DNA of 64,000 nucleotides, from the NCBI RefSeq assembly GCF_026151205.1, contig NC_087076.1, positions 494,001-558,000 on the forward strand, written 5' to 3'. Position numbers and translations under genes: made by a program. How positions within the stretch are numbered: the stretch's first letter is position 1; every line of letters starts with the position of its first letter. The DNA is from Bolinopsis microptera (Eukaryota > Ctenophora > Tentaculata > Lobata > Bolinopsidae). The notes under the pieces are model-generated. The model ran no database searches. It saw only the letters and a list, made by a program, of their open reading frames with translations, and was not told the DNA's origin. Positions 31,207-61,352 of this stretch are shown here, piece after piece.

Positions 31207-31271
31207 CTAACCCGAAATATCCTGCCATCCAGTGCACTCACACAATTTTAGATCATCAGGAGCTTCTGGAC
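31207..31271 (-). CDS. Exon 15 (terminal): C-terminal tail
   Basis: Acceptor TCACCTCATCAG, then GT completing the split cysteine codon of exon 14. Encodes PEAPDDLKLCECTGWQDISG and TAG at 31207-31209. The phase match (T|GT gives Cys) is the main support; the exon is short. Confidence 0.65.
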
Positions 31272-34200
31272 CTGATGAGGTGAACAGGTAAGGCTCACAG
31301 AAACACTCCTCTGTGAGGTGACAGGTGAATAGGCAGTACTAACTGGTGGGACGGTATTGGTAAGGCTCACAGAAACACTCCTCTGTGAGGTGACAGGTGA
31401 ATAGTCAGTACTAACTGGTGGGACGGTATTGGTAAGGCTCACAGAAACACTCCTCTGTGAGGTGACAGGTGAATAGTCAGTACTAACTGGTGGGACGGTA
31501 TTGGTAAGGCTCACAGAAACACTCCTCTGTGAGGTGACAGGTGAATAGTCAGTACTAACTGGTGGGACGGTATTGGTAAGGCTCACAGAAACACTCCTCT
31601 GTGAGGTGACAGGTGAATAGTCAGTACTAACTGGTGGGACGGTATCGGTAAGGCTCACAGAAACACTCCTCTGTGAGGTGACAGGTGAATAGTCAGTACT
31701 AACTGGTGGGACGGTATTGGTAAGGCTCACAGAAACACTCCTCTGTGAGGTGACAGGTGAATAGTCAGTACTAACTGGTGGGACAGTATTGGTAAGGCTC
31801 ACAGAAACACTCCTCTGTGAGGTGACAGGTGAATAGTCAGTACTAACTGGTGGGACGGTATTGGTAAGGCTCACAGAAACACTCCTCTGTGAGGTGACAG
31901 GTGAATAGTCAGTACTAACTGGTGGGACGGTATTGGTAAGGCTCACAGAAACACTCCTCTGTGAGGTGACAGGTGAATAGTCAGTACTAACTGGTGGGAC
32001 GGTATTGGTAAGGCTCACAGAAACACTCCTCTGTGAGATGACAGGTGAATAGTCAGTACTAACTGGTGGGACGGTATTGGTAAGGCTTACAGAAACACTC
32101 CTCTGTGAGGTGACAGGTGAATATTCAGTACTAACTGGTTGGACGGTATTGGTAAGGCTCACAGAAACACTCCTCTGTGAGGTGACAGGTGAATATTCAG
32201 TACTAACTGGTTGGACGGTATTGGTAAGGCTCACAGAAACACTCCTCTGTGAGGTGACAGGTGAATAGTCAGTACTAACTGGTGGGACGGTATTGGTAAG
32301 GCTCACAGAAACACTCCTCTGTGAGGTGACAGGTGAATAGTCAGTACTAACTGGTGGGACGGTATTGGTAAGGCTCACAGAAACACTCCTCTGTGAGGTG
32401 ACAGGTGAATAGTCAGTACTAACTGGTGGGACGGTATTGGTAAGGCTCACAGAAACACTCCTCTGTGAGGTGACAGGTGAATAGTCAGTACTAACTGGTG
32501 GGACGGTATTGGTAAGGCTCACAGAAACACTCCTCTGTGAGGTGACAGGTGAATAGTCAGTACTAACTGGTGGGACGGTATTGGTAAGGCTCACAGAAAC
32601 ACTCCTCTGTGAGGTGACAGGTGAATAGTCAGTACTAACTGGTGGGACGGTATTGGTAAGGCTCACAGAAACACTCGTCTGTGAGGTGACAGGTGAATAT
32701 TCAGTACTAACTGGTTGGACGGTATTGGTAAGGCTTACAGAAACACTCCTCTGTGAGGTGACAGGTGAATAGTCAGTACTAACTGGTTGGACGGCATCGG
32801 TAAGGCTCACAGAAACACTCCTCTGTGTCCCTCCATTGATGAATTCCGTTCCCCTGGTCTGGCTGAAGATCGCATATTCCTATATCGTACCACTGTCCAC
32901 ACTTTTCTTCTTTACAGTGCTTCCCGTCTGTAGAGGTAGTAAAATTATATATCGTACTATCTATATATTAGATATAAGGCTAATAAAATGATGCACTCAC
33001 CAGGTACACATCTGATATACACAGTGATGGAGCACTCACCAGGTACACATCTGATATACACAGTGATGGAGCACTCACCAGGTACACATCTGATATACAC
33101 AGTGATGGAGCACTCACCAGGTACACATCTGATATACACAGTGATGGAGCACTCACCAGGTACACATCTGATATACACAGTGATGGAGCACTCACCAGGT
33201 ACACATCTGATATACACAGTGATGGAGCACTCACCAGGTACACATCTGATATACACAGTGATGGAGCACTCACCAGGTACACATCTGATATACACAGTGA
33301 TGGAGCACTCACCAGGTACACATCTGATATACACAGTGATGGAGCACTCACCAGGTACACATCTGATATACACAGTGATGGAGCACTCACCAGGTACACA
33401 TCTGATATACACAGTGATGGAGCACTCACCAGGTACACATCTGATATACACAGTGATGGAGCACTCACCAGGTACACATCTGATATACACAGTGATGGAG
33501 CACTCACCAGGTACACATCTGATATACACAGTGATGGAGCACTCACCAGGTACACATCTGATATACACAGTGATGGAGCACTCACCAGGTACACATCTGA
33601 TATACACAGTGATGGAGCACTCACCAGGTACACATCTGATATACACAGTGATGGAGCACTCACCAGGTACACATCTGATATACACAGTGATGGAGCACTC
33701 ACCAGGTACACATCTGATATACACAGTGATGGAGCACTCACCAGGTACACATCTGATATACACAGTGATGGAGCACTCACCAGGTACACATCTGATATAC
33801 ACAGTGATGGAGCACTCACCAGGTACACATCTGATATACACAGTGATGGAGCACTCACCAGGTACACATCTGATATACACAGTGATGGAGCACTCACCAG
33901 GTACACATCTGATATACACAGTGATGGAGCACTCACCAGGTACACATCTGATATACACAGTGATGGAGCACTCACCAGGTACACATCTGATATACACAGT
34001 GATGGAGCACTCACCAGGTACACATCTGATATACACAGTGATGGAGCACTCACCAGGTACACATCTGATATACACAGTGATGGAGCACTCACCAGGTACA
34101 CATCTGATATACACAGTGATGGAGCACTCACCAGGTACACATCTGATATACACAGTGATGGAGCACTCACCAGGTACACATCTGATATACACAGTGATGG

Positions 34201-37200
34201 AGCACTCACCAGGTACACATCTGATATACACAGTGATGGAGCACTCACCAGGTACACATCTGATATACACAGTGATGGAGCACTCACCAGGTACACATCT
34301 GATATACACAGTGATGGAGCACTCACCAGGTACACATCTGATATACACAGTGATGGAGCACTCACCAGGTACACATCTGATATACACAGTGATGGAGCAC
34401 TCACCAGGTACACATCTGATATACACAGTGATGGAGCACTCACCAGGTACACATCTGATATACACAGTGATGGAGCACTCACCAGGTACACATCTGATAT
34501 ACACAGTGATGGAGCACTCACCAGGTACACATCTGATATACACAGTGATGGAGCACTCACCAGGTACACATCTGATATACACAGTGATGGAGCACTCACC
34601 AGGTACACATCTGATATACACAGTGATGGAGCACTCACCAGGTACACATCTGATATACACAGTGATGGAGCACTCACCAGGTACACATCTGATATACACA
34701 GTGATGGAGCACTCACCAGGTACACATCTGATATACACAGTGATGGAGCACTCACCAGGTACACATCTGATATACACAGTGATGGAGCACTCACCAGGTA
34801 CACATCTGATATACACAGTGATGGAGCACTCACCAGGTACACATCTGATATACACAGTGATGGAGCACTCACCAGGTACACATCTGATATACACAGTGAT
34901 GGAGCACTCACCAGGTACACATCTGATATACACAGTGATGGAGCACTCACCAGGTACACATCTGGTATACACAGTGATGGAGCACTCACCAGGTACACAT
35001 CTGATATACACAGTGATGGAGCACTCACCAGGTACACATCTGATATACACAGTGATGGAGCACTCACCAGGTACACATCTGATATACACAGTGATGGAGC
35101 ACTCACCAGGTACACATCTGGTATACACAGTGATGGAGCACTCACCAGGTACACATCTGATATACACAGTGATGGAGCACTCACCAGGTACACATCTGAT
35201 ATACACAGTGATGGAGCACTCACCAGGTACACATCTGATATACACAGTGATGGAGCACTCACCAGGTACACATCTGGTATACACAGTGATGGAGCACTCA
35301 CCAGGTACACATCTGATATACACAGTGATGGAGCACTCACCAGGTACACATCTGATATACACAGTGATGGAGCACTCACCAGGTACACATCTGATATACA
35401 CAGTGATGGAGCACTCACCAGGTACACATCTGATATACACAGTGATGGAGCACTCACCAGGTACACATCTGATATACACAGTGATGGAGCACTCACCAGG
35501 TACACATCTGATATACACAGTGATGGAGCACTCACCAGGTACACATCTGATATACACAGTGATGGAGCACTCACCAGGTACACATCTGGTATACACAGTG
35601 ATGGAGCACTCACCAGGTACACATCTGGTATACACAGTGATGGAGCACTCACCAGGTACACATCTGATATACACAGTGATGGAGCACTCACCAGGTACAC
35701 ATCTGATATACACAGTGATGGAGCACTCACCAGGTACACATCTGATATACACAGTGATGGAGCACTCACCAGGTACACATCTGATATACACAGTGATGGA
35801 GCACTCACCAGGTACACATCTGATATACACAGTGATGGAGCACTCACCAGGTACACATCTGATATACACAGTGATGGAGCACTCACCAGGTACACATCTG
35901 ATATACACAGTGATGGAGCACTCACCAGGTACACATCTGATATACACAGTGATGGAGCACTCACCAGGTACACATCTGATATACACAGTGATGGATCACT
36001 CACCAGGTACACATCTGATATACACAGTGATGGAGCACTCACCAGGTACACATCTGATATACACAGTGATGGAGCACTCACCAGGTACACATCTGATATA
36101 CACAGTGATGGAGCACTCACCAGGTACACATCTGATATACACAGTGATGGAGCACTCACCAGGTACACATCTGATATACACAGTGATGGAGCACTCACCA
36201 GGTACACATCTGATATACACAGTGATGGAGCACTCACCAGGTACACATCTGAACTCTTCGCAGGAATTCTTGTCACAGACTCGCGTACTCCTCCACTGAT
36301 GTGTCCCGTTCTTATCGTCTCTACATTTTCCTATGTCAATCCACCGTCCGCAGGCTGAACAGTCCTCTGAAGCGTGAAACGTTTATTAAAAAGTCGAAAC
36401 ATTACTGACTGGTAGAAGAAGTATTACCTGGTATGACTGACTGATAGAAGAAGTATTACCTGGTATGACTGACTGATAGAAGAAGTATTACCTGGTATGA
36501 CTGACTGATAGAAGAAGTATTACCTAGTATGACTGACTGATAGAAGAAGTATTACCTGGTATAACTGACTGGTAGAAGAAGTATTACCTGGTATGACTGA
36601 CTGGTAGAAGGAGTATTACCTGGTATGACTGACTGGTAGAAGAAGTATTACCTGGTATGACTGACTGGTAGAAGAAGTATTACCTGGTATGACTGACTGG
36701 TAGAAGAAGTATTACCTGGTATGACTGACTGGTAGAAGAAGTATTACCTGGTATGACTGACTGGTATGACTGACTGGTAGAAGAAGCATTACCTGGCATG
36801 ACTGGCTGGTATGACTGACTGGTATGACTGACTGGTAGAAGAAGTATTACCTGGCATGACTGACTGGTAGAAGAAGTATTACCTGGTATGACTGACTGGT
36901 AGAAGGAGTATTACCTGGTATGACTGACTGGTAGAAGAAGTATTACCTGGTATGACTGACTGGTAGAAGGAGTATTACCTGGTATGACTGACTGGTAGAA
37001 GAAGTATTACCTGGCATGACTGACTGGTAGAAGGAGTATTACCTGGTATGACTGACTGGTATGACTGACTGGTAGAAGAAGCATTACCTGGCATGACTGG
37101 CTGGTATGACTGACTGGTATGACTGACTGGTAGAAGAAGTATTACCTGGCATGACTGACTGGTAGAAGAAGTATTACCTGGTATGACTGACTGGTAAAAG

Positions 37201-40200
37201 GAGTATTACCTGGTATTACTGACTGGTAGAAGGAGTAGTACCTGGTATGACTGACTGGTAGAAGGAGTATTACCTGGTATGACTGACTGGTAGAAGGAGT
37301 ATTACCTGGTATGACTGACTGGTAGAGGAAGTATTACCTGGTATGACTGGCTGGTATGACTGACTGGTATGACTGACTGGTAGAAGAAGTATTACCTGGT
37401 ATGACTGACTGGTAGAAGGAGTATTACCTGGTATGACTGACTGGTAGAAGGAGTATTACCTGGTATGACTGACTGGTAGAAGGAGTATTACCTGGTATGA
37501 CTGACTGGTAGAAGGAGTATTACCTGGTATGACTGACTGGTAGAAGGAGTATTACCTGGTATGACTGACTGGTAGAAGAAGTATTACCTGGTATGACTGA
37601 CTGGTAGAAGGAGTATTACCTGGTATGACTGACTGGTAGAAGGAGTATTACCTGGTATGACTGACTGGTATGACTGACTGGTAGAAGGAGTATTACCTGG
37701 TATGACTGACTGGTAGAAGAAGTATTACTTGGTATGACTGACTGGTAGAAGAAGTATTACCTGGTATGACTGACTGGTAGAAGGAGTATTACCTGGCATG
37801 ACTGACTGGTAGAAGGAGTATTACCTGGTATGACTGACTGGTAGAAGAAGTATTACCTGGTATGACTGACTGGTAGAAGGAGTATTACCTGGTATGACTG
37901 ACTGGTAGAAGAAGTATTACCTGGTATGACTGACTGGTAGAAGGAGTATTACCTGGTATGACTGACTGGTAGAAGGAGTATTACCTGGTATGACTGACTG
38001 GTATGACTGACTGGTAGAAGGAGTATTACCTGGTATGACTGACTGGTAGAAGAAGTATTACTTGGTATGACTGACTGGTAGAAGAAGTATTACCTGGTAT
38101 GACTGACTGGTAGAAGGAGTATTACCTGGCATGACTGACTGGTAGAAGGAGTATTACCTGGTATGACTGACTGGTAGAAGAAGTATTACCTGGTATGACT
38201 GACTGGTAGAAGGAGTATTACCTGGTATGACTGACTGGTAGAAGGAGTATTACCTGGTATGACTGACTGGTAGAAGAAGTATTACCTGGTATGACTGACT
38301 GGTAGAAGGAGTATTACCTGGTATGACTGACTGGTAGAAGGAGTATTACCTGGTATGACTGACTGGTCGTTATCACAGCATGTACTGGTCACATTGCGCA
38401 CTTGTTCCTGACAGTAATTGGGACTGCAGACTCTCCACTCCTCCTGCACACACCCACTCTCATCAAGAACACACGATACTCCTACCCACTTCCCGCAGTT
38501 ACAATCTTCTTCTTCTTCTTCGTCTCCCCATGTTTCTTCCTTTTCTTCCTCTTTGTTGTCTCCTCCTTCTCTAACGCCTGTGGAGATGCTTGTCGAAAAC
38601 TAGTCCTCCTCAATCCAAATTTATATTAATTTTTCCTAACTATGGAGCCAGATCCCTAAAATTTCATTTCCAACTTCGATTAGGACAAACTTATTATTTT
38701 AAAGATTTAAATCTCATGTCAATATGTTGAAGCTGAGAAATTAAATAAAGTTACCATATACACAGGGGGCCGGGGGGGGGGGGGGGGGGGGGCTCAGTCG
38801 CTGAGTGCCCGACTGAGATAACTATTTTTGGTATGACTTGCAATCACCACTCATTCGAGGAATACATCAAATCAAAGAATATTCGTGTTAATCTTTTTCC
38901 GAATGAAGGCTCATTTTTGCATTTATTTGTCTAACCAAGTTGTATTGAATTAGCTTTCGAATCTCGGATGACCGAGATATGAAGCATAACGGGGTTATCC
39001 TTTACGTGTGATCAGGTAATTCGGTTCAAACTAGATCTGCATTATAAGAATCGTGCAGAGAGTCCAATTATGGTGTCGCAGCACGCTATCACATGATTAG
39101 TGATTGGATAATCATTGATTACCCAATCAATTTTGCTAAAGAGATAAATAAATTGCTTGATAACTTCGTCATTTTAAATTCGGTTTACACCATCCTTTCA
39201 GATTATATCCCGGATTTTATGACCTATAGTAATATGTTACAACGGAGTCTTTAACATATTCACAAACACGAGTATAAGCAATTCAATTTGATTGGGTGTG
39301 CCCCCAAAAATCAAATTTTGAAATTCAAACCCTCGAATGAGTAGTGACAGTATACCATCTGCAAAGTTACAGGTCTCAAACATGAAACATGGAGGTGGTA
39401 CTATAAGACCCAACGTATAGGTACTGACTTTTGCCCCCCCCCCCCTGTATTATAATATAATACCACAGCAAAGTTGAGCGATTGGTTTCTCCTCCATGAT
39501 ATCGCACCCAGGAGTACAGTCCCTGATCATGGTAGCATCACAGGACTCCGTACACCGCCATTCAGAACATTCACACCTATCCGCGTCACAGCACAACTGT
39601 CCTATTTCCTTCTCCTCCTCCCTCTCGCACCCCTCCGCACAGTTCCTGATCATAGTCCCGTCACACGTGTCCGCACACTGCCAGTCCGTGCACGTGCAAA
39701 CAGGCTCAACAGAACAGCAGGGCTGGGCTATAGGTTTCTCCTCAATATCGCACTTGTTCTCGCAGGTCCGGATCATGGTAGCGTCACATGACTCTTTACA
39801 TTCCCACTCTGTGCACGTGCAAGGTGGCTTGTCTAAACAGCAGTTATCTTTCGTAAACCGTGCCTGAAAATGAGAGAGATAAACCAACATTACCTCAATA
39901 TCACACCCAGGAGTAGGACCACCTTACCTCAATATCACACCCAGGAGAAGGACCACACTTACCTCAATATCACACCCAGGAGTAGGACCACACTTCCTAG
40001 TGTAGGTGTTATCACACTCTTCGTCACATTCCCACTCCGAGCAAATGCAGTTTACTGAAACATTCTCAGTATCAAGCTTCAACCTACCAAAATAATGATA
40101 TTACCTTATCAGTTACCTTATCAGTTACCTTATCAGTTACCTTATCAGTTACCTTATCAGTTACCTTATCAGTTACCTTATCAGTTACCTTATCAGTTAC

Positions 40201-43200
40201 CTTATCAGTTACCTTATCAGTTACCTTATCAGTTACCTTATCAGTTACCTTATCAGTTACCTTATCAGTTACCTTATCAGTTACCTTATCAGTTACCTTA
40301 TCAGTTACCTTATCAGTTACCTTATCAGTTACCTTATCAGTTACCTTATCAGTTACCTTATCAGTTACCTTATCAGTTACCTTATCAGTTACCTTATCAG
40401 TTACCTTATCAGTTACCTTATCAGTTACCTTATCAGTTACCTTATCAGTTACCTTATCAGTTACCTTATCAGTTACCTTATCAGTTACCTTATCAGTTAC
40501 CTTATCAGTTACCTTATCAGTTACCTTATTGTATCGTATTTTATCAGATGCCATCGTGGAGTAGGTGGTCTCCTGCACCTTTTTCCCCTTGACATAAAAG
40601 AAAAAACCTAGACATGCAACCTGCAATCCGAAAGTGATTGCAGCCCTTACGGAAGACTATAAGGTGTTCATGCTTTTATTAATGATACATAATGATAGCT
40701 TGTAAACCCCAGAAGTTTCCAGTATCGTTATGGATCGTAACACTTACTGAGCCTGGTGACACAAAGCCAAAAGCTGCATGCTGGGACCGGCTTAAAATTT
40801 TTAAAGAAACGAATGGTCTTCGTATCATTCATTCCTGTAGATTTGAGTGCGGAAGGGCGGCGAAAATTTATATCGACTCTGCACAGTTGTGAAGTGAAAG
40901 TGCATACTATTATACTCATAGTGGTAGTTAAATGGATGGAAATGTAATATTATTCTATTAGTAATGCTGTAGCCCAAGGTATATGTTTGACCCCATGTGG
41001 TGTAAGTCATCTGATAGACACGTTATAGACACGTGAAACATCAAAAAACAAGAGGCCGAAATTGGAAGCGATAATTATCGAACTAAATAGATACCGAGAA
41101 ACGGTAAATATGCACAGGGAAGGGGTATAATATATCAGTTACCTTAATGGTTCAAATAATAATAACTGTGTTAAATTTAATTGTGCACAGTATAAGCCGC
41201 GCTAATTAATCGTGCACAGTATAATAAGTCGCGCTAATTAATCGTGCACAGTATAAGCCGCGCTAATTAATCGTGCACAGTATAAGCCGCGCTAATTAAT
41301 CGTGCACAGTATAAGCCGCGCTAATTAATCGTGCACAGTATAATAAGCCGCGCTTATTAATCGTGCACAGTATAAGCCGCGCTAATTAATCGTGCACAGT
41401 ATAAGCCGCGCTAATTAATCGTGCACAGTATAAGCCGCGCTAATTAATCGTGCACAGTATAAGCCGCGCTAATTAATCGTGCACAGTATAAGCCGCGCTA
41501 ATTAATCGTGCACAGTATAAGCCGCGCTAATTAATCGTGCACAGTATAATAAGCCGCGCTTATTAATCGTGCACAGTATAAGCCGCGCTAATTAATCGCG
41601 CACAGTATAAGCCGCGCTAATTAATCGTGCACAGTATAAGTCGCGCTAATTAATCGTGCACAGTATAATAAGCCGCGCTAATTAATCGTGCACAGTATAA
41701 GCCGCGCTAATTAATCGTGCACAGTATAATAAGCCGCGCTAATTAATCGTGCACAGTATAAGCCGCGCTAATTAATCGTGCACAGTATAAGCCGCGCTAA
41801 TTTGAACCGGTAAAAATGACTTATCCGGGCACCCTGTTAGTCAGTACTAATATATAATATAAAGGATAACTTATAACCAAGAATAAGTTAACAATAATAG
41901 GTGAGCTGCTAAAACATACTGCATTTTGGATCGTCGGGAGGGATAAAGGGACATTTAACTGCTATCTCGAAGAGCTTTCCGCACTCCCTGTTGTCTAACA
42001 TGAGCCCATTCTCGCACAAACACATTCTGAATCTGGGTCTTGTTTTCATTACACAGGTTATATCTCCGCAGTCAGGGTTACTCCACTCGCTCCAACCTGG
42101 GTATTGCACGTTAGTCACTAAATAAATCAGCAACTGTGAAGCATATCTAAAGTTTGCAGGAGACAGAGTGCAAAAGTTACAAGATAAGATTAAGAAATTC
42201 TGTACTCTGATTATCTCTGATTTTGCAGGAGTAGCTATACTCGAGTCTATACTCGACTGTCACATGACTTAACACGTTTTCTAGGTGGCCCTGAATGACT
42301 ATTCGAAACCCTCTCATCTGACCCTAACCCAATCCCTAACTGAAACACATGCTTTAACTCTAACTCTAACTTTAAATTTTCGCCGATATCTTCGCCGATA
42401 TTTTTAACCTTATGTCATGGGGGTGATTCGGAATCAGCATTTCAAAAATACATCGATTGAAGTTGGTTTCAAATTTTTTTTAAATCTCGAAGTTCGAGTG
42501 TAGAGAGATTTAGTTTTACACTCCGTAAAACTAAATAGCAAAATCTCACAAGCAGCTTATGTCGAGGAGCCATAAAATTGTCAGACGTCAATCTTGTGAG
42601 GATTAATGCCCTAATCTTGAGAGGATCAATGCCTTAATCCAAGCCAGAAATTGACTGAAGAGTTTCGGCTCATTGTATCAACGGAAGCATCTGATTTTTA
42701 CATAGACTACATATTATAGCAGATTATAACACTTACCTTTGCTGCAGGTTTTTTCCATTTGGTAGCTAGTACCATTAGCACACTTGCTCCTGTCAAGATC
42801 CTGTCTATTTGTTTCGTCAGTGCAGGCACAATCTCTGTCTTGTCGCTGGTTGCAAGTGTTGTCACATCCTGACCACTCCCCCCAACTTGTCACATCATCT
42901 AGTGAGCTTTATATCAGAGTGTCACAAATCACAATGACTGTTTAACAAAAATAAGCAAATGAAGATTAAGCTGTTAAAGTGGCACTCACATGGTAACAAG
43001 TAACCATGGCAACTCACATGGTAACAAGTAACCATGGTAACTCACATGGTAACAAGTCACTATCGTAACTCACATGGTAACAAGTCACTATCGTAACTCA
43101 CATGGTAACAAGTAACCATGGTAACTCACATGGTAACAAGTAACCATGGTAATTCACATGGTAACAAGTCACTATCGTAACTCACATGGTAACAAGTAAC

Positions 43201-46200
43201 CATGGTAACTCACATGGTAACAAGTAACCATGGTTACTCACATGGTAACAAGTCACTATCGTAACTCACATGGTAACAAGTAACCATGGTAACTCACATG
43301 GTAACAAGTAACCATGGTTACTCACATGGTAACAAGTCACTATCGTAACTCACATGGTAACAAGTAACCATGGTAACTCACATGGTAACAAGTAACCATA
43401 GTAACTCACATGGTAACAAGTAACCATGGTAACTCACATGGTAACAAGTAACCATGGTAACTCACATGGTAACAAGTCACTATCGTAACTCACATGGTAA
43501 CAAGTAACCATGGTAACTCACATGGTAACAAGTAACCATGGTAACTCACATGGTTTGGCAGCGCATTCCTCCTCTCGTGTTGCAGAGCCACCCAGATATC
43601 CACATTTGTCCTGTGCCTCGCTGCCCTCCCACTGTATACCTCTATTTGCTTGACAGCAACAGGACCTACGAGCTATTGCAAGAGAGGCTGCACATGTTGG
43701 CTCCTCTGAAGTGCACCCGCCCTCCCACGGTCCCCACACTGCCAGGGAACACTCTATATAATAGTAACAAGTAACCACGGTCCCACACTGCCAGGGAACA
43801 CTCTATATAATAGGCAACTACTCTCAATTCTCAGATACAGTTCAGTTATCAGATCTGCAAACTAATTACTCAAGGGAAACGAGGTGTATAGACTATAGAA
43901 TACAAGTTGTTACCCTAACAGTGGAGGATTTAAAAAGAGAACCTGTCGGGCAGGTCTCTGTTTAAAAAGAGAACCTGTCGGGCAGGTCTCTGTTTAAAAA
44001 GAGAACCTGTCGGGCAGGTCTCTGTTTAAAAAGAGAACCTGTCGGGCAGGTCTCTGTTTAAAAAGAGAACCTGTCGGGCAGGTCTCTGTTTAAAAACAAC
44101 AAGTAACCATGGTAACAAGTAACCTGTCGGGCAGGTCTCTGTTTGAAAAGAGAACCTGTCGGGCAGGTCTCTGTTTGAAAAGAGAACCTGTCGGGCAGGT
44201 CTCTGTTTAAAAACAACAAGTAACCATGGTAACAAGTAACCTGTCGGGCAGGTCTCTGTTTAAAAAGAGAACCTGTCGGGCAGGTCTCTGTTTAAAAAGA
44301 GAACCTGTCGGGCAGGTCTCTGTTTAAAAACAACAAGTAACCATGGTAACAAGTAACCTGTCGGGCAGGTCTCTGTTTGAAAAGAGAACCTGTCGGGCAG
44401 GTCTCTGTTTAAAAAGAGAACCTGTCGGGCAGGTCTCTGTTTAAAAACAACAAGTAACCATGGTAACAAGTAACCTGTCGGGCAGGTCTCTGTTTGAAAA
44501 GAGAACCTGTCGGGCAGGTCTCTGTTTGAAAAGAGAACCTGTCGGGCAGGTCTCTGTTTAAAAACAACAAGTAACCATGGTAACAAGTAACCTGTCGGGC
44601 AGGTCTCTGTTTAAAAAGAGAACCTGTCGGGCAGGTCTCTGTTTAAAAAGAGAACCTGTCGGGCAGGTCTCTGTTTAAAAACAACAAGTAACCATGGTAA
44701 CAAGTAACCTGTCGGGCAGGTCTCTGTTTAAAAACAACAAGTAACCATGGTAACAAGTAACCTGTCGGGCAGGTCTCTGTTTAAAAAGAGAACCTGTCGG
44801 GCAGGTCTCTGTTTAAAAAGAGAACCTGTCGGGCAGGTCTCTGTTTAAAAACAACAAGTAACCATGGTAACTCACCTGTCGGGCAGGTCTCTGTTTGAAA
44901 AGCTTCTCCATCACAGTTACTTTCCAAGTGGACCCCAGTGTCGTCCTGACACCCGCACTTTCTATATCTCTTCCTCTTACAAGTGAACACGTCGCAGTCA
45001 CTCCAACTCTCCCATTCTTCCCACTCATCTGATTTGAATAACCATAATATTGGAAATATAATAACAATATTTGAAAGTATTCATATTCTATACAAAATGC
45101 TAGTTGGCTTTTAATTTGTTTGGAAAACAAAATAGGATATTTTTCTGCAAACAGTCCATAGGACTGAAAAAATGATTAATAAGCTTTCGGTTCAAAAGAA
45201 TTAAACTCTAAATCATCCAAATTGCAATCAGTTTGGATGAGAGTTTAATTCTTTCGAACCGAAAGCTTATTAATTATTTTCTAAGTTAGTCGACGGTCGA
45301 TTTAGATTAACAACATGACACAGTGCTCCTTTATAATAGCAAATTTAGTCGCAGTAAACTTGGTTTAAAACAATTGAAATAATAAATGTGACTAAATTTA
45401 TGGTAGACTTGATGCGTCGTTTTTAGGATAATCCATGTCTGGCTCGATACATTTGCAAGGTAGGAGGACAGGTTTGCTCTAGTAGAAGTTGGGGTTTTGT
45501 ACTCACATTGCAAGGTAGGAGGACAGGTTTGCTCTAGTAGAAGTTGGGGTTTTGTACTCACATTGCAAGGTAGGAGGACAGGTTTGCTCTAGTAGAAGTT
45601 GGGGTTTTGTACTCACATTGCAAGGTAGGAGGACAGGTTTGCTCTAGTAGAAGTTGGGGTTTTGTACTCACATTGCAAGGTAGGAGGACAGGTTTGCTCT
45701 AGTAGAAGTTGGGGTTTTGTACTCACATTGCAAGGTAGGAGAACTGGTTTGCTCTAGTAGAAGTTGGGGTTTTGTACTCACATTGCAAGGTAGGAGGACA
45801 GGTTTGCTCTAGTAGAAGTTGGTGTTTTGTACTCACATTGCAAGGTAGGAGGACAGGTTTGCTCTAGTAGAAGTTGGGGTTTTGTACTCACATTGCAAGG
45901 TAGGAAGACAGGTTTGCTCTAGTAGAAGTTGGGGTTTTGTACTCACATTGCAAGGTAGGAGGACAGGTTTGCTCTAGTATAAGTTGGGGTTTTGTACTCA
46001 CATTGCAAGGTAGGAGGACAGGTTTGCTCTAATAGAAGTTGGGGTTTTGTACTCACATTGCAAGGTAGGAGGACAGGTTTGCTCTAGTAGAAGTTGGGGT
46101 TTTGTACTCACATTGCAAGGTAGGGGGACAGGTTTGCTCTAGTAGAAGTTGGGGTTTTGTACTCACATTGCAAGGTAGGGGGACAGGTTTGCTCTAGTAG

Positions 46201-49200: not shown

Positions 49201-52200
49201 GTTGTGCAGTCTCTACTTATTGAGACCTGTTGTGCAGTCTCTACTTATTGAGACCTGTTGTGCAGTCTCTACTTATTGAGACCTGTTGTGCAGTCTCTAC
49301 TTATTGCTTTATTGAAACCTGTTGTGCAGTCTCTACTTATTGAGACCTGTTGTGCAGTCTCTACTTATTGAGACCTGTTGTGCAGTCTCTACTTATTGAG
49401 ACCTGTTGTGCAGTCTCTACTTATTGAGACCTGTTGTGTAGTCTCTACTTATTGAGACCTGTTGTGCAGTCTCTACTTATTAAAACCTGTTGTGCAGTCT
49501 CTACTTATTGAGACCTGTTGTGCAGTCTCTACTTATTGAGACCTGTTGTGCAGTCTCTACTTATTGAGACCTGTTGTGCAGCCTCTACTTATTGAGACCT
49601 GTTGTGCAGTCTCTACTTATTAAAACCTGTTGTGCAGTCTCTACTTATTGAGACCTGTTGTGCAGTCTCTACTTATTGAGACCTGTTGTGCAGTCTCTAC
49701 TTATTGAGACCTGTTGTGCAGTCTCTACTTATTGAAACCTGTTGTACAGTCTCGACTTATTGAAACCTGTTGTGCAGTCTCTACTTAATGCTTTATTGAA
49801 ACCTGTTGTGCAGTCTCTACTTATTAAAACCTGTTGTGCAGTGTCTACTTATTGAAACCTGTTGTGCAGTCTCTACTAACTGAAACCTGTTGTGCAGTCT
49901 CTACTTATTGAGACCTGTTGTGCAGTCTCTACTTATTGAGACCTGTTGTGCAGTCTCTACTTATTGAGACCTGTTGTGCAGTCTCTACTTATTGAGACCT
50001 GTTGTGCAGTCTCTACTTATTGCTTTATTAACACCTGTTGTGCAGTCTCTACTTATTGAGACCTGTTGTGCAGTCTCTACTTATTGAGACCTGTTGTGCA
50101 GTCTCTACTTATTGAAACCTGTTGTGCAGTCTCTACTTATTGAAACCTGTTGTGCAGTCTCTACTTATTGAAACCTGTTGTGCAGTCTCTACTTATTGAA
50201 ACCTGTTGTGCAGTCTCTACTTATTGAGACCTGTTGTTCAGTCTCTACTTATTGAAACCTGTTGTGCAGTCTCTACTTATTGAAACCTGTTGTGCAGTCT
50301 CTACTTATTGAGACCTGTTGTGCAGTCTCTACTTATTGAGACCTGTTGTGCAGTCTCTACTTATTGAGACCTGTTGTGCAGTCTCTACTTATTGAGACCT
50401 GTTGTGCAGTCTCTACTTATTGAAACCTGTTGTGCAGTCTCTACTTATTGAGACCTGTTGTGCAGTCTCTACTTATTGAAACCTGTTGTGCAGTCTCTAC
50501 TTATTGAAACCTGTTGTGCAGTCTCTACTTATTGAAACCTGTTGTGCAGTCTCTACTTATTGAGACCTGTTGTGCAGTCTCTACTTATTGAAACCTGTTG
50601 TGCAGTCTCTACTTATTAAAACCTGTTGTGCAGTGTCTACTTATTGAAACCTGTTGTGCAGTCTCTACTTATTGAAACCTGTTGTACAGTCTCGACTTAT
50701 TGAAACCTGTTGTGCAGTCTCTACTTATTGAGACCTGTTGTGTAGTCTCTACTTATTGAAACCTGTTGTGCAGTCTCTACTTATTGAAACCTGTTGTGCA
50801 GTCTCTACTTATTGAGACCTGTTGTGCAGTCTCTACTTATTGAAACCTGTTGTGCAGTCTCTACTTATTGAAACCTGTTGTGCAGTCTCTACTTATTGAG
50901 ACCTGTTGTGCAGTCTCTACTTATTGAAACCTGTTGTGCAGTCTCTACTTATTGAAACCTGTTGTGCAGTCTCTACTTATTGAAACCTGTTGTGCAGTCT
51001 CTACTTATTGAAACCTGTTGTGCAGTCTCTACTTATTGAAACCTGTTGTGCAGTCTCTACTTATTGAGACCTGTTGTTCAGTCTCTACTTATTGAAACCT
51101 GTTGTGCAGTCTCTACTTATTGAAACCTGTTGTGCAGTCTCTACTTATTGAGACCTGTTGTGCAGTCTCTACTTATTGAGACCTGTTGTGCAGTCTCTAC
51201 TTATTGAGACCTGTTGTGCAGTCTCTACTTATTGAGACCTGTTGTGCAGTCTCTACTTATTGAAACCTGTTGTGCAGTCTCTACTTATTGAAACCTGTTG
51301 TGCAGTCTCTACTTATTGAAACCTGTTGTGCAGTCTCTACTTATTGAGACCTGTTGTGCAGTCTCTACTTATTGAAACCTGTTGTGCAGTCTCTACTTAT
51401 TGAAACCTGTTGTGCAGTCTCTACTTATTGAAACCTGTTGTGCAGTCTCTACTTATTGAGACCTGTTGTGCAGTCTCCACTTATTGAAACCTGTTGTGCA
51501 GTCTCCACTTATTGAGACCTGTTGTGCAGTCTCCACTTATTGAGACCTGTTGTGCAGTCTCTACTTATTGAAACCTGTTGTGCAGTCTCTACTTATTGAG
51601 ACCTGTTGTGCAGTCTCTACTTATTGAGACCTGTTGTGCAGTATCTACTTATTGAGACCTGTTGTGCAGTCTCTACTTATTGAGACCTGTTGTTCAGTCT
51701 CTACTTATTGAGACCTGTTGTGCAGTCTCTACTTATTGAAACCTGTTGTACAGTCTCTACTTATTGAGACCTGTTGTGCAGTCTCTACTTATTGAGACCT
51801 GTTGTGCAGTCTCTACTTATTGAAACCTGTTGTGCAGTCTCTACTTATTGAAACCTGTTGTGTAGTCTCTACTTATTGAGACCTGTTGTGCAGTCTCTAC
51901 TTATTGAAACCTGTTGTGCAGTCTCTACTTATTGAGACCTGTTGTGCAGTCTCTACTTATTGAAACCTGTTGTGCAGTCTCTACTTATTGAAACCTGTTG
52001 TGCAGTCTCTACTTATTGAGACCTGTTGTGCAGTCTCTACTTATTGAGACCTGTTGTGCAGTCTCTACTTATTGAGACCTGTTGTGCAGTCTCTACTTAT
52101 TGAGACCTGTTGTGCAGTCTCTACTTATTGAAACCTGTTGTGCAGTCTCTACTTGTTGAAACCTGTTGTGCAGTCTTTACTTATTAAAACCTGTTGTGCA

Positions 52201-55200
52201 GTCTCTACTTATTGAAACCTGTTGTGCAGTCTCTACTTATTGAAACCTGTTGTGCAGTCTCTACTTATTGAAACCTGTTGTGCAGTCTCTACTTACTGAA
52301 ACCTGTTGTGCAGTCTCTACTTATTGAGACCTGTTGTGCAGTCTCTACTTATTGAGACCTGTTGTGCAGTCTATACTTATTGAGACCTGTTGTGCAGTCT
52401 CTACTTATTGAGACCTGTTGTGCAGTCTCTACTTATTGAGACCTGTTGTGCAGTCTCTACTTATTGAGACCTGTTGTGCAGTCTCTACTTATTGAGACCT
52501 GTTGTGCAGTCTCTACTTATTGAGACCTGTTGTGCAGTCTCTACTTATTGAGACCTGTTGTGCAGTCTCTACTTATTGAGACCTGTTGTGCAGTCTCTAC
52601 TTATTGAGACCTGTTGTGCAGTCTCTACTTATTAAAACCTGTTGTGCAGTGTCTACTTATTGAAACCTGTTGTGCAGTCTCTACTTACTGAAACCTGTTG
52701 TGCAGTCTCTACTTATTGAGACCTGTTGTGCAGTCTCTACTTATTGAGACCTGTTGTGCAGTCTCTACTTATTGAGACCTGTTGTGCAGTCTCTACTTAT
52801 TGAGACCTGTTGTGCAGTCTCTACTTATTGAGACCTGTTGTGCAGTCTCTACTTATTGAAAACTGTTGTGCAGTCTCTACTTATTGAAACCTGTTGTGCA
52901 GTCTCTAATTACTGAAACCTGTTGTGCAGTCTCTACTTATTGAGACCTGTTGTTCAGTCTCTACTTATTGAAACCTGTTGTGCAGTCTCTACTTATTGAA
53001 ACCTGTTGTGCAGTCTCTACTTATTGAGACCTGTTGTGCAGTCTCTACTTATTGAGACCTGTTGTGCAGTCTCTACTTATTGAGACCTGTTGTGCAGTCT
53101 CTACTTATTGAAACCTGTTGTGCAGTCTCTACTTACTGAAACCTGTTGTGCAGTCTCTACTTATTGAAACCTGTTGTGCAGTCTCTACTTATTGAGACCT
53201 GTTGTGCAGTCTCTACTTATTGAGACCTGTTGTGCAGTCTCTACTTATTGAGACCTGTTGTGCAGTCTCTACTTATTGAGACCTATTGTGCAGTCTCTAC
53301 TTATTGAAACCTGTTGTACAGTCTCTACTTATTGAGACCTGTTGTGCAGTCTCTACTTACTGAAACCTGTTGTGCAGTCTCTACTTATTGAGACCTGTTG
53401 TGCAGTCTCTACTTATTGAGACCTGTTGTGCAGTCTCTACTTATTGAGACCTGTTGTGCAGTCTCTACTTATTGAAACCTGTTGTACAGTCTCTACTTAT
53501 TGAGACCTGTTGTGCAGCCTTTTCCTTACTGAAACCTTTGTGCAGTCTTATTTAATTAGACCTTTGTCCCGCCCCTTAAAATTATTAAGACCTGTGTGCA
53601 TTTTTAAACTTTTTAAAAAACCTTTTGGTCCAGTCTTCTACTTATTGAGACCTTTTGGGGGCATTTCCTTATTTTTTTTAAAACCCTTTGTTGTGCAGTC
53701 TCTTTTTATTAAAGCCCTGTTGGCATTTTTAATTTATTGAAAACCGGGTTGGGGCCACCCTTTTACTTTTTTGAAAACCTGGGGGGAAGTCTCCAAATTT
53801 TGGGGGCCCTGTTGTCCGCCCTTACTTTTTGAAACCTGTTTGCATTCTCTACTTATTAAAAGGGTTGTGCAGTGTCTCTTTTTAAAACCTGTTGTGCAGT
53901 CTCTACTTACTAAAACCCTTTTTGGTGCAGTCTCTATTTATTGAGACCTGTTGTGCAGTCTCAAATTTTTTGAACCTGTTTGCAGCTTACTTTTTTGAAA
54001 CCGTTGTGCAGTCTCTATTTAAATTAAACCCCCTTTTGTGCAGCCCTCTATTTAAATTGAGACCTTTTTGTGCGCCCTTTCTTTATTGGGGCCCTTTATT
54101 TTGCGTCTATTTTATTAAAACCCTTTTTTTTGTACAGTCCCCAACTTTTGAGGACCTTTTTTTCCCGTCCTATTTAAATAAAAACCTGTTGTGCGGCCCC
54201 CTACTTATTGGACCTATTGGCAGTCTTACTTTTTAAAAAAACCTGTTTTTAAAGTCTCTATTTATATTGAGCCCTGTTGTGCAGTCCCCATTTAAACTGA
54301 AACCTGTTTTGCAGCCCCTCTTTTAAATTGAACCGGTTGTGAAAGTCTCATTTATTGAAAACCTTTTTGGGGCCAGCCCTCTACTTATTGAACCTTTTGG
54401 GAAAAGTCTTACTTGGGGGAAACCCGGGTTTTTACGGGTCTTTTTACAAATGGACCTGTTGTGCAGTCTCTATTTTACTGAAACCTTTTTGTGAAAGTTT
54501 CTTATTGATCCTTTTTTGTGCGTCTCATTTTATTGAAAACCTTTTGTGCAGTCTTACTTATTAAAACCTTTTTGGGCAGTCTCTATTTTATTGAAAACCT
54601 GTGTGCATTTCTCTACTTTTTTGAAACCTTTTGTGCGTCTAAACGATTGAAAACCTTTTGGGTGCATTTCTTTTATTTTTGGGAGCCCTTTGTTGTGAGT
54701 CTTTTATTTATTGAAAACCTGTTTTTGCAGTCTCCACTTATTTGGCCTGTTGTGCGTTCTATTTAAATTGGCCCTGTTTGGGGAAAGCCCTCTACTTTTT
54801 TTAAAAAATTTTTGTGAGGGGCCCTACTTTTTGGAAACCTGTTGTGCAGCCCTCACTTACTGAAACCTTTTTGGGGCAGCCCTTTTCTTATTGGGGACCT
54901 GTTGGGGCGTCTCTACTTTTGGACCTGTTGTGCATTCTCTCCCTTTTGAGACTGTTGTGCAGTCTTTTTTTAATTGGGGCCCTTTTTGTGCAGCCCTCTA
55001 CTTATTGAGACCTTTTGTGCAGTTTCCTTATTGAAAACTTTTGGGCAGTCTCCTTTTTAAAAACCTTTTGATTCCTACTTAAGAAACATGTTGTGCGCCC
55101 TCTACTTATTGAGCCCTGTTGTTCGTCTCAAATTTAAATTGAAACCCTGTTGTGCGGGTCCTATTTATTGAAACCTGTTGGGCATCTCTATTATTGAAAA

Positions 55201-58200
55201 CCTGTTTGTACAGTCTCTATTTTATTGAGACCTGTTTTTCAGTCTCTACTTATTGAGGCCCGGGTTTGTGCGGGTCTCTGCTTATTGAAAACCCTGTTGT
55301 GCAGTCTCTACTTTTTGAAACCCTTTTGGGGGGCGTCTTTTTCTTATTGAGACCTTTTGGGTGCGTCTCTATTTATTTAAAGACCTGTTTGGGCATTTCT
55401 CTTTTTTTCTAAAACCCTGTTGTGAAAAGTCTCTACTTTTTGAGCCCTGTTGTGCACCTCTACTTTTTTTAAAACCCCGTTGTGCGGGGTTCAAACTTAT
55501 TAAAAACCTTTGTTGTGCATCCCCACTTATTGAGACCTGTTGTACAGTCTCTATTTAAATTGAACCTTTTTTGGGGCGTTTTCTATTTAAATGAAACCTG
55601 TTTGCGTTCAAACTTATTAAAACCCTGTTGGGGGAAAGTCTTTTCCTTTAATGGGGACCTGTTGTGCATTCTCTCCCTTATTGAGACCTGTTGGCATTCT
55701 ATTTATTAAACCTTTTTGTACAGTCTAACTTTTTTGAGCCCCTTTTTTTGGCAGTCTTTTTACTTACTAAAACCCTTTTGGCGGGCCCTCTACTTTTTTG
55801 AGACCCGGGGCATCCACTTACTGGGGACCTGTTGTGCAGCCCTTAACTTTTTGAAACCGGGTTTGCGTCTCTATTTAAATTGAGACCTTTTTGTGCACTT
55901 ACTTTTTTAAAACCCTTTTTGTGCAGTCTCTACTTATTGAAACCTGTTGTGCAGTCTCTACTTATTGAACCTGTTGTGCAGTCTCTACTTATTGAGAACC
56001 TGTTGTGCAGTCTCTACTTATTGAGACCTGTTGTGCAGTCTCTACTTTATTGAAACCTGTTTGCAGTCTCTACTTATTGAAAACCTGTTGTGCAGTCTCT
56101 ACTTATTGAGACCTGGTTGTGCAGTCTCTACTTATTGAGGACTGTTGTGCAGTCTCTACTTATTGAAACTGTTGTGCAGTCTCTACTTATTGAAACCTGT
56201 TGTGCAGTCTCTACTTATTGAGACCTGTTGTGCAGTCTCTACTTACTGAAACCTGTTGTGCAGTCTCTACTTATTGAGACCTGTTGTGAGGTCTCTACTT
56301 ATTGAGACCTGTTGTGCAGTCTCTACTTATTGAAACCTGTTGTGCAGTCTCTACTTATTGAGCCCTTTTTGTGCATTCTCTATTTAAATTAAAACCTTTT
56401 TTTCCCAATTTCCCCCACTTTTTGAGCCCTTTTTTTGTCCCATCTCTACTTATTGGCCCTTTTTGGGGCCAGTCTTACTTTTTGAACCTGTTGTGCACCC
56501 TCCACTTTTTGGGAAACCTTTTTGTGCTTCTCAAACTTTTTGAGACCTGTTGTGCAGCCCTCCCATTTTTGAGACTTGTTGTCATTCTACTTTTTGGGGA
56601 GACATGTTTGCAGTCTTACTTATTGAGCCCCTTTTGCATCTCTACTTATTGACCCGTTGGCATTTCTCTCTTATTGAAACCTGTTTTTGCGGGTCCCCTT
56701 TTTTTTTTGGGGAACCTGTTGTGCAGTCTTACTTATTAAAAACCTGTTTTTGCAGTTCTACTTTTTAAAAAAACCTGTTGTGGGGCCAAATTATTAAACC
56801 CTGTTGTCCCGTCTTATTTACTGAAACCCTGTTTTTTCCCCAGTCTCTACTTTTGAGACCTTTTTGTCAGCCCTCTACTTTTTTTGAGACCTGTTGTGCA
56901 GTCCTACTTTTTAAAACCCCTATTTTTCGCCCTTAACTTATTGAAAACCCTGTTGTGCGGGTCCCCCAACTTTTTGGGAAACCTGTTGTGCATCTCAAAC
57001 TTTTTGGGAGACCTGTTGTGCAGTCTCAAATTTTGAGACCTGTTGTGCAGTCATCACCTTGGGGGAGCCCTTTGTTGTGAAAGGCCCCCTCCACTTATTG
57101 AGACCGTTGTGCAGCCCTCATTTAAATTGAGCCGTTTGCACCCTCCATTTTTGAGACCTGTTGCAGTTCTATTTATTGGACCTGTTTGCAGTCTCTACTT
57201 ATTGAGACCTGTTTGGCAGCCCCTCTACTTTTTTGAAACCTTTTGTGGGGTCTCTATTTAAATTAAAAGGCCTGTTTGCCGCCCTCAAAATTTATTGAGC
57301 CCTTTTGGGTGCAGTTCTACTTATTGAAACCTTTTTGAAAAAGTCTCTATTTTATTGGACCTGTTGGTGCAGTCTCAAATTTAATTGAGACCTGTTGTGC
57401 AGTCTCTATTTTATTGAAACCTGTTGTGCAGTCTCTATTTATTAAAAACCTTTGTTGTGCAGTCTCAAACTTATTGAGCCCTTTTTTGCCGGGTCTCTAA
57501 TTAAATTGAGACCTGTTGTGCGAGTCTCTACTTATTGAGACCTGTTGTGCAGTCTCTACTTATTGAGACCTGTTGTGTAGTCTCTACTTATTGAGACCCT
57601 GTTGTGCAGTCTCTACTTATTGAACCTGTTGTGCAGTCTCTACTTATTGAAACCTGTTGTGCAGTCTCTACTTATTGAAACCTGTTGTGCAGTCTCTACT
57701 TATTGAGACCTGTTGTGCAGTCTACCACTTATTGAACCTGTTGTGCAGTCTCTACTTATTGAGACCTGTTGTGCAGTCTCTACTTATTGAGACCTGTTGT
57801 GCAGTATCTACTTTATTGAGACCTGTTGTGCAGTCTCTACTTATTGAGACCTGTTGTGCAGTCTCTACTTATTGAAACCTGTTGTGCAGTCTCTACTTGT
57901 TGAGACCTGTTGTGCAGTCTCTACTTATTGAAACCTGTTGTGCAGTCTCTACTTATTGAGACCTGTTGTGCAGTCTCTACTTATTGAGACCTGTTGTGCA
58001 GTCTCTACTTATTGAATCCTGTTGTGCAGTCTCTACTTGTTGAAACCTGTTGTGCAGTCTTCTACTTATTAAACCTGTTGTGCAGTCTCTACTTATTGAA
58101 ACCTGTTGTGCAGTCTCTACTTATTGAAACCTGTTGTGCAGTCTCTACTTATTGAGACCTGTTGTGCAGTCTCTACTTATTGAGACCTGTTGTGCAGTCT

Positions 58201-61200
58201 CTACTTATTGAGACCTGTTGTGCAGTCTCTACTTATTGAAACCTGTTGTGCAGTCTCTACTTATTGTAACCTGTTGTGCAGTCTCTACTTATTGAGACCC
58301 TGTTGTGCAGTCCTCCACTTATTGAAACCTGTTGTGCAGTCCCTCTACTTATTGAGACCTGTTGTGCAGTCTCTACTTATTGAGACCTGTTGTGCAGTAT
58401 CTACTTATTGAGACCTGTTGTGCAGTCTCTACTTATTGAGACCTGTTGTGAAGTCTCTACTTATTGAAACCTGTTGTGTGCAGTCTCTACTTGTTGAGAC
58501 CTGTTGTGCAGTCTCTACTTATTGAAACCTGTTGTGCAGTCTCTACTTATTGAGACCTGTTGTGCAGTCTCTACTTATTGAGATCTGTTGTGCAGTCTCT
58601 ACTTATTGAAACCTGTTGTGCAGGTCTCTACTTGTTGAAACCTGTTGTGCAGTCTTTACTTATTAAAACCTGTTGTGCAGTCCTCTACTTATTGAAACCT
58701 GTTGTGCAGTCTCTACTTATTGAAACCTGTTGTGCAGTCTCTACTTATTGAGACCTGTTGTGCAGTCTCTACTTATTGAGACCTGTTGTGCAGTCTCTAC
58801 TTATTGAGACCTGTTTGTGCAGTCTCTACTTATTGAGACCTGTTGTGCTGTCTCTACTTATGAGACCTGTTGTGCAGTCTCTACTTATTGAAACCTGTTG
58901 TGCAGTCTCTACTTATTGAAACCTGTTGTGCAGTCTCTACTTATTGAAACCTGTTGTGCAGTCTCTACTTATTGAGACCTGTTGTGCAGTCTCCACTTAT
59001 TGAAACCTGTTGTGCAGTCTCTACTTATTGAGACCTGTTGTGCAGTCTCTACTTATTGAGACCTGTTGTGCAGTATCTACTTATTGAGACCTGTTGTGTA
59101 GTCTCTACTTATTGAGACCTGTTGTGCAGTCTCTACTTATTGAAACCTGTTGTGCAGTCTCTACTTGTTGAAACCTGTTGTGCAGTCTTTACTTATTAAA
59201 ACCTGTTGTGCAGTCCTCTACTTATTGAAACCTGTTGTGCAGTCTCTACTTATTGAAACCTGTTGTGCAGTCTCTACTTATTGAAACCTGTTGTGCAGTC
59301 TCTACTTATTGAGACTTGTTGTGCAGTCTCTACTTATTGAAACCTGTTGTGCAGTCTCTACTTATTGAGACCTGTTGTGCAGTCTCTACTTACTGAGACC
59401 TGTTGTGCAGTCTCTACTTATTGAGACCTGTTGTGCAGTCTCTACTTATTGAGACCTGTTGTGCAGTCTCTACTTATTGAGACCTGTTGTTCAGTCTCTA
59501 CTTATTGAAACCTGTTGTGCAGTCTCTACTTATTGAGACCTGTTGTGCAGTCTCTACTTATTGAGACCTGTTGTGCAGTCTCTACTTATTGAGACCTGTT
59601 GTGCAGTCTCTACTTATTGAGACCTGTTGTGCAGTCTCTACTTATTGAGACCTGTTGTGCAGTCTCTACTTATTGAAACCTGTTGTGCAGTCTCTACTTA
59701 TTGAGACCTGTTGTGCAGTCTCTACTTATTGAGACCTGTTGTGCAGTCTCTACTTATTGAGACCTATTGTGCAGTCTCTACTTATTGAGACCTATTGTGC
59801 AGTCTCTACTTATTGAGACCTGTTGTGCAGTCTCTACTTATTGAGACCTGTTGTGCAGTCTCTACTTATTGAGACCTGTTGTGCAGTCTCTACTTATTGA
59901 GACCTGTTGTGCAGTCTCTACTTATTGAAACCTGTTGTGCAGTCTCTACTTATTGAGACCTGTTGTGCAGTCTCTACTTATTGAAACCTGTTGTGCAGTC
60001 TCTACTTATTGAGACCTGTTGTGCAGTCTGTACTTATTGAGACCTGTTGTGCAGTCTCTACTTATTGAGACCTGTTGTGCAGTCTCTACTTACTGAGACC
60101 TGTTGTGCAGTCTCTACTTACTGAGACCTGTTGTGCAGTCTCTACTTACTGAGACCTGTTGTGCAGTCTCTACTTATTGAGACTTGTTGTGCAGTCTCTA
60201 CTTATTGAGACCTGTTGTGAAGTCTCTACTTACTGAGACCTGTTGTGCAGTCTCTACTTATTGAGACCTCTTGTGCAGTCTCTAGTTATTGAAACCTGTT
60301 GTGCAGTCTCTACTTATTGAGACCTGTTGTGCAGTCTCTACTTATTGAAACTTGTTGTGCAGTCTCTACTTATTGAAACCTGTTGTGCAGTCTCTACTTA
60401 TTGAAACCTGTTGTGCAGTCTCTACTTATTGAGACCTGTTGTGTAGTCTCTACTTATTGAGACCTGTTGTGCAATCTCTACTTATTGAGACCTGTTGGGC
60501 AGTCTCTACTTATTGAGACCTGTTGTGCAGTCTCTACTTGTTGAAACCTGTTGTGCAATCTCTACTTATTGAAACCTGTTGTGCAGTCTCTACTTATTGA
60601 GACCTGTTGTGCAGTCTCTACTTATTGAGACCTGTTGTGCAGTCTCTACTTACTGAAACCTGTTGTGCAGTCTCTAGTTATTGAGACCTGTTGTGCAGTC
60701 TCTACTTATTGAGACCTGTTGTGTAGTCTCTACTTATTGAGACCTGTTGTGCAGTCTCTACTTATTGAAACCTGTTGTGTAGTCTCTACTTATTGAGACC
60801 TGTTGTGCAGTCTCTACTTATTGAAACCTGTTGTGCAGTCTCTACTTATTGAGACCTATTGTGCAGTCTCTATTTTCTTCAGATTGACCCACCTGTTTTG
60901 CAGTCTCTAGTTTCTTCAGATTGACCCACCTGTTTTGCAGTCTCTAGTTTCTTCAGATTGACCCACGCATTTGGAGAGGTGAGACTCATGATGTTGCCTC
61001 CCGTCAAAACAGCCACAAGTTCTAGAACGAGTCTGTTGACAGTTCTCATTGCATCTCTCCGGATTCCAATCAGTCCACTCGTTCCACGAAGCTGTGGATT
61101 ATATATATTACTCTCAGTACTAATATTTAAGCAACTGAATCATTTAAAAAGACTACACGGCCTCCAAGAACTTACAAGGCTGAACTCTGCATATTTTAGA

Positions 61201-61352: not shown

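Follow-up and report, generated by a model that had tools for sequence, protein, structure and literature searches.

Minisatellite-like tandem repeats that lie across exon–intron boundaries have been described in amphioxus, where they are called 'mirages' and occur in Adh3, globins, PGBD5 and troponin C (PMC3087553, PMC3902484). In the accessible portions of these reports, the units of the Adh3 mirage measure 10–72 bp, regular splicing is reported to be undisturbed though many repeats carry AG/GT, and a role in intron gain is suggested. The accessible portion of a review of intron gain (PMC3443670) covers the tandem genomic duplication model (Rogers 1989).

We analysed a 64,000-nucleotide stretch of the genome of Bolinopsis microptera (the window), which contains a similar arrangement in a ctenophore rather than a cephalochordate host. 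Repeat units span the exon–intron boundary in eight of the 15 introns of an adt-1-like gene and, as in amphioxus, differ between loci and do not form one dispersed family. There are also differences. The amphioxus globin genes BflGb6 and BflGb9, in the text available to us, have both 5′ and 3′ boundaries duplicated and units of 150–160 bp in the cases described, whereas all eight Bolinopsis arrays are at donors and have units of 28–72 bp. Copy numbers in Bolinopsis, moreover, go up to about 412 and array lengths to 11.8 kb. Introner elements are likewise repeats tied to splice sites, but they represent one sequence family found in many introns, which the units within the window do not. The duplicated AG/GT segments of the arrays resemble those of the Rogers model; unlike in that model, no acceptor in use derives from an array copy, and two of the introns seem to predate the arrays.

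To our knowledge, boundary minisatellites are known in print only from amphioxus; a 2002 study of amphioxus Adh by Canestro reportedly names somatic polymorphism in its title. Among the matches listed in our literature searches there was no report of boundary minisatellites in ctenophores, and term searches of the accessible text of ctenophore papers found no mention of donor-spanning arrays. Since amphioxus mirages are already in print, the phenomenon as such, going by the available portions of those reports, is not new in kind.

Tandem arrays across the donors of an adt-1-like gene

The gene is encoded on the minus strand, from 61352 to 30978, and has 16 exons and 15 introns within the window; the sequence-only reading had counted 14 introns, and its eight donor-array introns stand. 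A protein search with exons 1–9 returned one match, the annotated Bolinopsis protein P0003, named A disintegrin and metalloproteinase with thrombospondin motifs adt-1-like isoform X2. The translation of spliced exons 3–16 is identical to P0003 over 730 of 730 residues, a match that is not blind at the end of exon 4 and the start of exon 10, both of which were taken from P0003. This isoform has 13 introns and starts with Met in exon 3 at 47241, so that exons 1 and 2 are outside it. According to the accessible text of the B. microptera genome paper, PacBio CLR, HiFi and Iso-Seq libraries were produced, and the BRAKER annotation used RNA-seq and Iso-Seq. A phase-compatible extra exon ending at the 12-bp array (40525–40587) was dropped; P0003 joins exon 9 to a later start of exon 10.

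The donors after exons 5, 6, 7, 10, 12, 13 and 14 coincide exactly with those of P0003. The donor of exon 2, being outside the isoform, is a putative one, placed by the thrombospondin type 1 (TSP1)-like character and phase of its exon. Nine columns, with two Trp and five Cys among them, are invariant in an alignment of exon 2 with the TSP1-like exons 6–9. Like exons 6 and 8, exon 2 stops two residues plus a split codon beyond the last Cys, and its phase is the same. Pfam gave a single sub-threshold TSP_1 match for the exon 1–9 protein (E 0.033) and none for the exon 10–16 protein. No relatives of P0003 were found in the viral or genome contig collections searched.

Counting TRF units of at least 10 bp present in at least 2.8 copies, we found arrays at ten loci of the gene, eight of which span donors (Table 1): seven among the 13 introns of P0003 and one in the intron after exon 2. 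Left out of the counts were rows below 2.8 copies (such as 9547–9586, 20415–20450, 22948–22991, 25268–25331 and 42590–42639), a 5-bp tract (47868–47900), rows nested within larger arrays, and a degenerate cluster upstream of exon 1 (62327–63987). The presence of tandem units across the 5′ splice sites of eight introns, as originally proposed from the sequence, is thus borne out. For the seven donors within P0003, the annotated exon end coincides with the first copy of the donor. Both the donor and an exon tail are part of the unit, with tails of 5–50 nt rather than the 3–49 nt first given, and the units span the donor with their borders elsewhere, not on the donor as had been claimed.

Table 1. 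Exons and tandem arrays at donors, with off-donor arrays for comparison; a slash marks the exon–intron border.
Feature	Position	Strand	Details
Exon 2, thrombospondin type 1-like	60930..61091	(-)	donor CAG/GTGGGT; outside P0003
Intron 2 array, 37-bp unit x3.1 then 28-bp unit x412	49124..60966	(-)	TRF; 37 nt exon
Exon 5	46497..46682	(-)	donor AAT/GTGAGT; exact in P0003
55-bp array x19.9 over exon 5 donor	45453..46546	(-)	50 nt exon + GTGAG
Exon 6	44876..45028	(-)	donor CAG/GTGAGT
32-bp / 117-bp composite array over exon 6 donor	43929..44901	(-)	27 nt exon + GT
Exon 7	43550..43738	(-)	donor CAT/GTGAGT; acceptor region duplicated once
28-bp array x20.4 over exon 7 donor	42984..43554	(-)	5 nt exon
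29-bp array inside intron 9, off donor (counter-example)	41177..41802	(-)	TRF
12-bp array inside intron 9, off annotated donors (counter-example)	40101..40529	(-)	TRF
Exon 10	39963..40054	(-)	donor GAG/GTAAGT
35-bp array x3.1 over exon 10 donor	39890..39995	(-)	33 nt exon
Exon 12	38350..38577	(-)	donor CAG/GTAATA
32-bp array x60 over exon 12 donor	36404..38367	(-)	18 nt exon; ends 37 nt from acceptor
Exon 13	36238..36366	(-)	donor CTG/GTGAGT
39-bp array x83.6 over exon 13 donor	32993..36252	(-)	15 nt exon
Exon 14	32784..32927	(-)	donor CCA/GTTAGT
72-bp array x21.4 over exon 14 donor	31287..32827	(-)	44 nt exon; ends 15 nt from acceptor
Gene 2, about 51-bp array after exon A (20541-21038)	21039..22032	(+)	junction word GGTATGTCTAAATATTA x5 within array
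Gene 2, 30-bp array x42 after exon B (22456-23679)	23693..24961	(+)	starts 13 nt past donor, not spanning

Exon tails included, the donor arrays amount to 21,352 bases, against 27,829 intron bases (77%), and those after exons 10, 12, 13 and 14 extend to within 15–65 nt of the acceptor. Match levels are 92–100% in six of the eight, 84% in the exon 2 array and 81% in the exon 12 array. Two nearly loopless inverted repeats, resembling hairpins or small inverted-repeat elements, were also seen, one in intron 5 (45163–45286; 62-nt arms, 82%) and one in intron 2 (47485–47559; 37-nt arms, 100%). Upstream of exon 1, at 62300–64000, there is a degenerate repeat of 19–25 bp, AGCGGTATATTCCCC-like and as noisy as the middle of the 28-bp array.

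The arrays had been described as arising from unrelated seeds, and for the most part they do appear unrelated. In a comparison of 13 units (78 pairs), three pairs were at the floor of 200 shuffles: the 28-bp and 37-bp units of the exon 2 array, which belong to the same array, and two weakly scored pairs, E2/E6 and E7/E12, which stand as exceptions. The other exception is the start of introns 6 and 7, which have their first 23 nt in common, so these two loci are not independent. The 117-bp higher-order unit of intron 6 (43929–44901) includes part of the unit found in intron 7, TTACCATGGTTACTTGTT. This sharing reflects either exchange between neighbouring arrays or common descent.

Donor placement and the room available in introns

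The sequence-only reading held that chance would not put arrays on donors eight times. If each array is collapsed to one unit and placed uniformly on the collapsed gene, 0.64 of ten arrays would be expected to span a donor, compared with the eight observed (P 6e-9). This null is too generous, because five of the eight introns collapse to 28–108 nt (E2 1859, E5 429, E6 196, E7 108, E10 28, E12 51, E13 89 and E14 43 nt, each intron being named after its preceding exon), and in introns that short a donor-spanning position is nearly the sole tolerated placement. We therefore used a second null, in which an array stays in its own intron, spares the last 20 nt and enters an exon only across the donor. 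It predicts 4.24 of ten (P 3.1e-4). Leaving out exon 2 gives seven of nine observed versus 4.23 expected (P 0.0069), and leaving out exon 7, given the common start of introns 6 and 7, gives seven of nine with P 0.00097. With forbidden tails of 0 to 60 nt, the expectation is 3.65–5.02 and P is 1.1e-4 to 1.5e-3, or 0.0025 to 0.029 without exon 2.

Collapsed lengths of 28, 43 and 51 nt are perhaps too short for real ancestral introns. The arrays may have replaced intron sequence, in which case the room-based null may be too kind; with ancestral lengths sampled from the six array-free introns, 2.3 would be expected (P 1.9e-4). The gene is a one-gene sample and was chosen for being extreme. GTG-type donors were not significantly associated with arrays among its introns (five of eight with arrays, one of seven without; P 0.12). 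The excess over chance remains, at eight against about four, but it is modest, and the shortness of the introns supplies much of its apparent force under uniform placement.

A direct scan of the junctions gave duplication scores of at least 26 at eight of 15 donors and at two of the 16 acceptors scanned (that of exon 1 included), whereas 200 interior control points off the arrays had a median of 7 and a maximum of 23. The two acceptors are those of exons 7 and 15. At exon 7 there is a two-copy duplication (43732–43813, period 49, score 32), the sole clear acceptor-spanning one in the scan; the exon 15 score is due to the 72-bp array, whose tail reaches that acceptor. By array and exon coordinates, none of the ten arrays spans an acceptor, and the contrast of eight donor-spanning with no acceptor-spanning arrays has a two-sided P of 0.008.

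The second gene in the window (plus strand, 5598–27363) carries seven counted arrays; over 69% of its length as a query, it matches two isoforms of LOC134815892 from Bolinopsis microptera at 100%. One of the seven arrays, that after exon A, spans a donor, versus 0.15–0.20 expected (P 0.14–0.19); its start was placed by hand at the donor, the TRF start being 21053, and the first exon of isoform X3 was left out as a donor in this test. The array after exon B adjoins its donor, and the remaining five are interior, including one at 26329–26500 that no exon of isoform X2 or X3 covers. An interior row at 8541–8616 (22 bp, 3.4 copies, 66% matches), which meets the copy rule and overlaps a 45-bp x2 row, was left out; adding it gives one of eight. 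The idea that donors are hot spots for amplification, put forward from the sequence, is weakened by these counts taken together with the room-adjusted excess in the first gene.

At exon B, the relative P0006 reads beyond the donor as VRSFIVIKYYTNVTRAYGPLPNY, that is, one unit-like stretch followed by VTRAYGPLPNY. The corresponding Bolinopsis sequence is VRSF, 42 units encoding ILIVTSVTRA in one frame, other sequence, two more units and YGPLPNY. The seven relatives P0006–P0012 read 45, 6, 58, 43, 6, 16 and 2 residues beyond the donor, with no repeats visible by eye in these stretches, three of which are long enough to tell. At the level of protein readings, the comparison supports what would be a recent local amplification of the array that adjoins, but does not span, the exon B donor.

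Other features were observed in and around this gene. The first intron of isoform X2 contains a 337-bp satellite (11816–20089) in two head-to-head arms of about 15 and 9 copies, with 99–100% matches and a reverse-complement consensus, which may be a genuine inverted satellite or else a palindrome produced by the assembly. A possible exon absent from annotated X2 and X3 (26299–26547) has an in-frame 21-bp repeat encoding PPNYTPL, and an ORF fragment at 145–525 looks, by eye, like a LINE reverse transcriptase.

Repeated donors and the choice of splice site

The exact 9-nt sequence of the used donor is found, with the used one counted, 2 times in the exon 2 array, 19 in that of exon 5, 1 in exon 6, 20 in exon 7, 1 in exon 10, 51 in exon 12, 84 in exon 13 and 21 in exon 14. 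The arrays do carry many duplicate donors, as proposed; in those of exons 2, 6 and 10 the repeated donors have diverged from the first. Here the repeats read mainly CAG/GTCTCA or GTTTCA (exon 2, where the array contains 318 CAGGT, mostly as part of these variants of the donor), CAG/GTTCTC (exon 6) and GAG/GTAAGG (exon 10), and by eye they fit the usual donor consensus less well.

In aligned copies of the other five arrays (exons 5, 7, 12, 13 and 14), the positions that differ from the consensus number 50 of 4381 in the exon-derived part, 28 of 1211 in the donor (+1 to +6) and 75 of 2786 in the remaining intronic part. Pooled over these arrays there is no extra conservation of the donor (28/1211 versus 125/7167 for the rest, P 0.17), the direction being towards less conservation. 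Almost all donor differences come from the exon 12 array, in which donor identity is 0.926 and which drives the pooled result. Donor positions are 0.992–1.000 identical in the arrays of exons 5, 7, 13 and 14, and invariant in three of them (exons 5, 13 and 14), but these copies are nearly uniform elsewhere too. The exon-derived part of the units varies less than the remaining intronic part, but the share of exon is not the same in all arrays.

Translation continuing past the donor would run into a stop by about the second copy in the arrays of exons 2, 5, 7, 12 and 14. The 39-bp unit of exon 13 is open: in the frame of that exon the entire array has a single stop, after about six units, so splicing from an early internal donor would add 13 residues per copy. 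At the protein level, exons end without repeat units both in P0003 and in its relative P0001. The latter is a contiguous ORF from another source that aligns from the end of exon 11 through exon 16 with 63% identity. It has no repeat units inserted, retains junctions 12/13, 13/14 and 14/15, and is probably a spliced ortholog. From the annotation and this one ortholog, we infer that the first donor copy would be the one used in RNA.

Origin of the arrays

The reading that we favor, with a probability of about 0.62, is that the arrays belong with the boundary minisatellites known as mirages in amphioxus, duplicated in place, tolerated through use of the first donor and limited by the available room. 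Short segments across 5′ splice sites would have undergone tandem duplication where they lay, and slippage or unequal exchange would then have expanded and homogenised the copies. If the spliceosome picks the first, exon-adjacent donor copy, the whole array leaves with the intron at any copy number and would thus be tolerated, while a duplication within an exon, or one covering the branch point and acceptor, would harm the mRNA and be lost by selection. Because many introns of the gene were short, donor-spanning placements would often be the sole ones left. Such a filter alone, however, does not suffice for eight of ten arrays (P 1.1e-4 to 1.5e-3). That shortfall leaves room for a donor-specific mutational bias in addition. 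A less likely rival is that the donors of this genome are themselves hot spots of mutation for tandem duplication, for instance through co-transcriptional R-loops, U1-linked pausing or repair on a template of short pre-mRNA fragments spanning the donor. It would account for the excess left after allowing for intron room, the absence of acceptor-spanning arrays, the two donor-side arrays of the second gene, and the fact that donors are spanned even in introns 2, 5 and 6, where the collapsed intron offers 1859, 429 and 196 nt. On the other hand, the evidence comes from one gene chosen as extreme, P rises to 0.0025–0.029 when exon 2 is omitted, intron 9 holds two arrays off the donor, and only one of the seven counted arrays of the second gene spans a donor.

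Positive selection for donor arrays, with many U1 sites buffering donor mutation or preventing premature polyadenylation, is very unlikely: five of the eight arrays retain 19–84 exact copies of the used donor and donor positions are invariant in three, but the pooled count reveals no extra donor conservation and the repeated donors of exons 2, 6 and 10 differ from the first. Still less credence can be given to the arrays as marks of intron gain by tandem duplication of AG/GT segments. The GTGGGT of the exon 2 donor does copy an exonic GTGGGT 37 nt upstream, yet none of the acceptors in use is within a tandem array, and the positions of the intron 10 acceptor and the exon B donor are present in relatives. 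The coding sequence is left at the former by P0002 and at the latter by P0006–P0012, so that two introns, as judged from protein readings at two junctions, appear older than the arrays; the earlier suggestion that the arrays are a substrate for intron gain finds no support here. An assembly or consensus artefact is just as improbable. The 28-bp array does break into irregular rows with homopolymer-like noise by eye at about 53.8–57.2 kb (53800–57250), and the libraries named in the available text of the genome paper, probably that of the assembly from which the window comes, are PacBio CLR or HiFi, but the units differ between arrays, each is joined to the right exon tail, six of eight arrays have 92–100% matches, and the exons are intact over all 730 residues. 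Copy numbers may nonetheless be wrong, and the middle of the 28-bp array is unreliable, resembling an uncorrected long-read consensus.

A broader conjecture, which we consider doubtful, is that in ctenophores, and independently in amphioxus, active donors are mutational hot spots, where splicing-coupled chemistry would seed duplications of the surrounding 30–70 nt; these would expand into satellites that fill the introns, and intron length would be driven chiefly by them. Eight such arrays in one ctenophore gene and one in its neighbour suggest that boundary minisatellites recur in distant animals. Because a chromosome-scale Bolinopsis genome and Iso-Seq data are in print, as the accessible text of the genome paper indicates, the donor bias can be counted directly. 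The arrays also represent natural tests of 5′ splice-site choice, offering up to 84 identical donors in one array, of which the first is apparently used.
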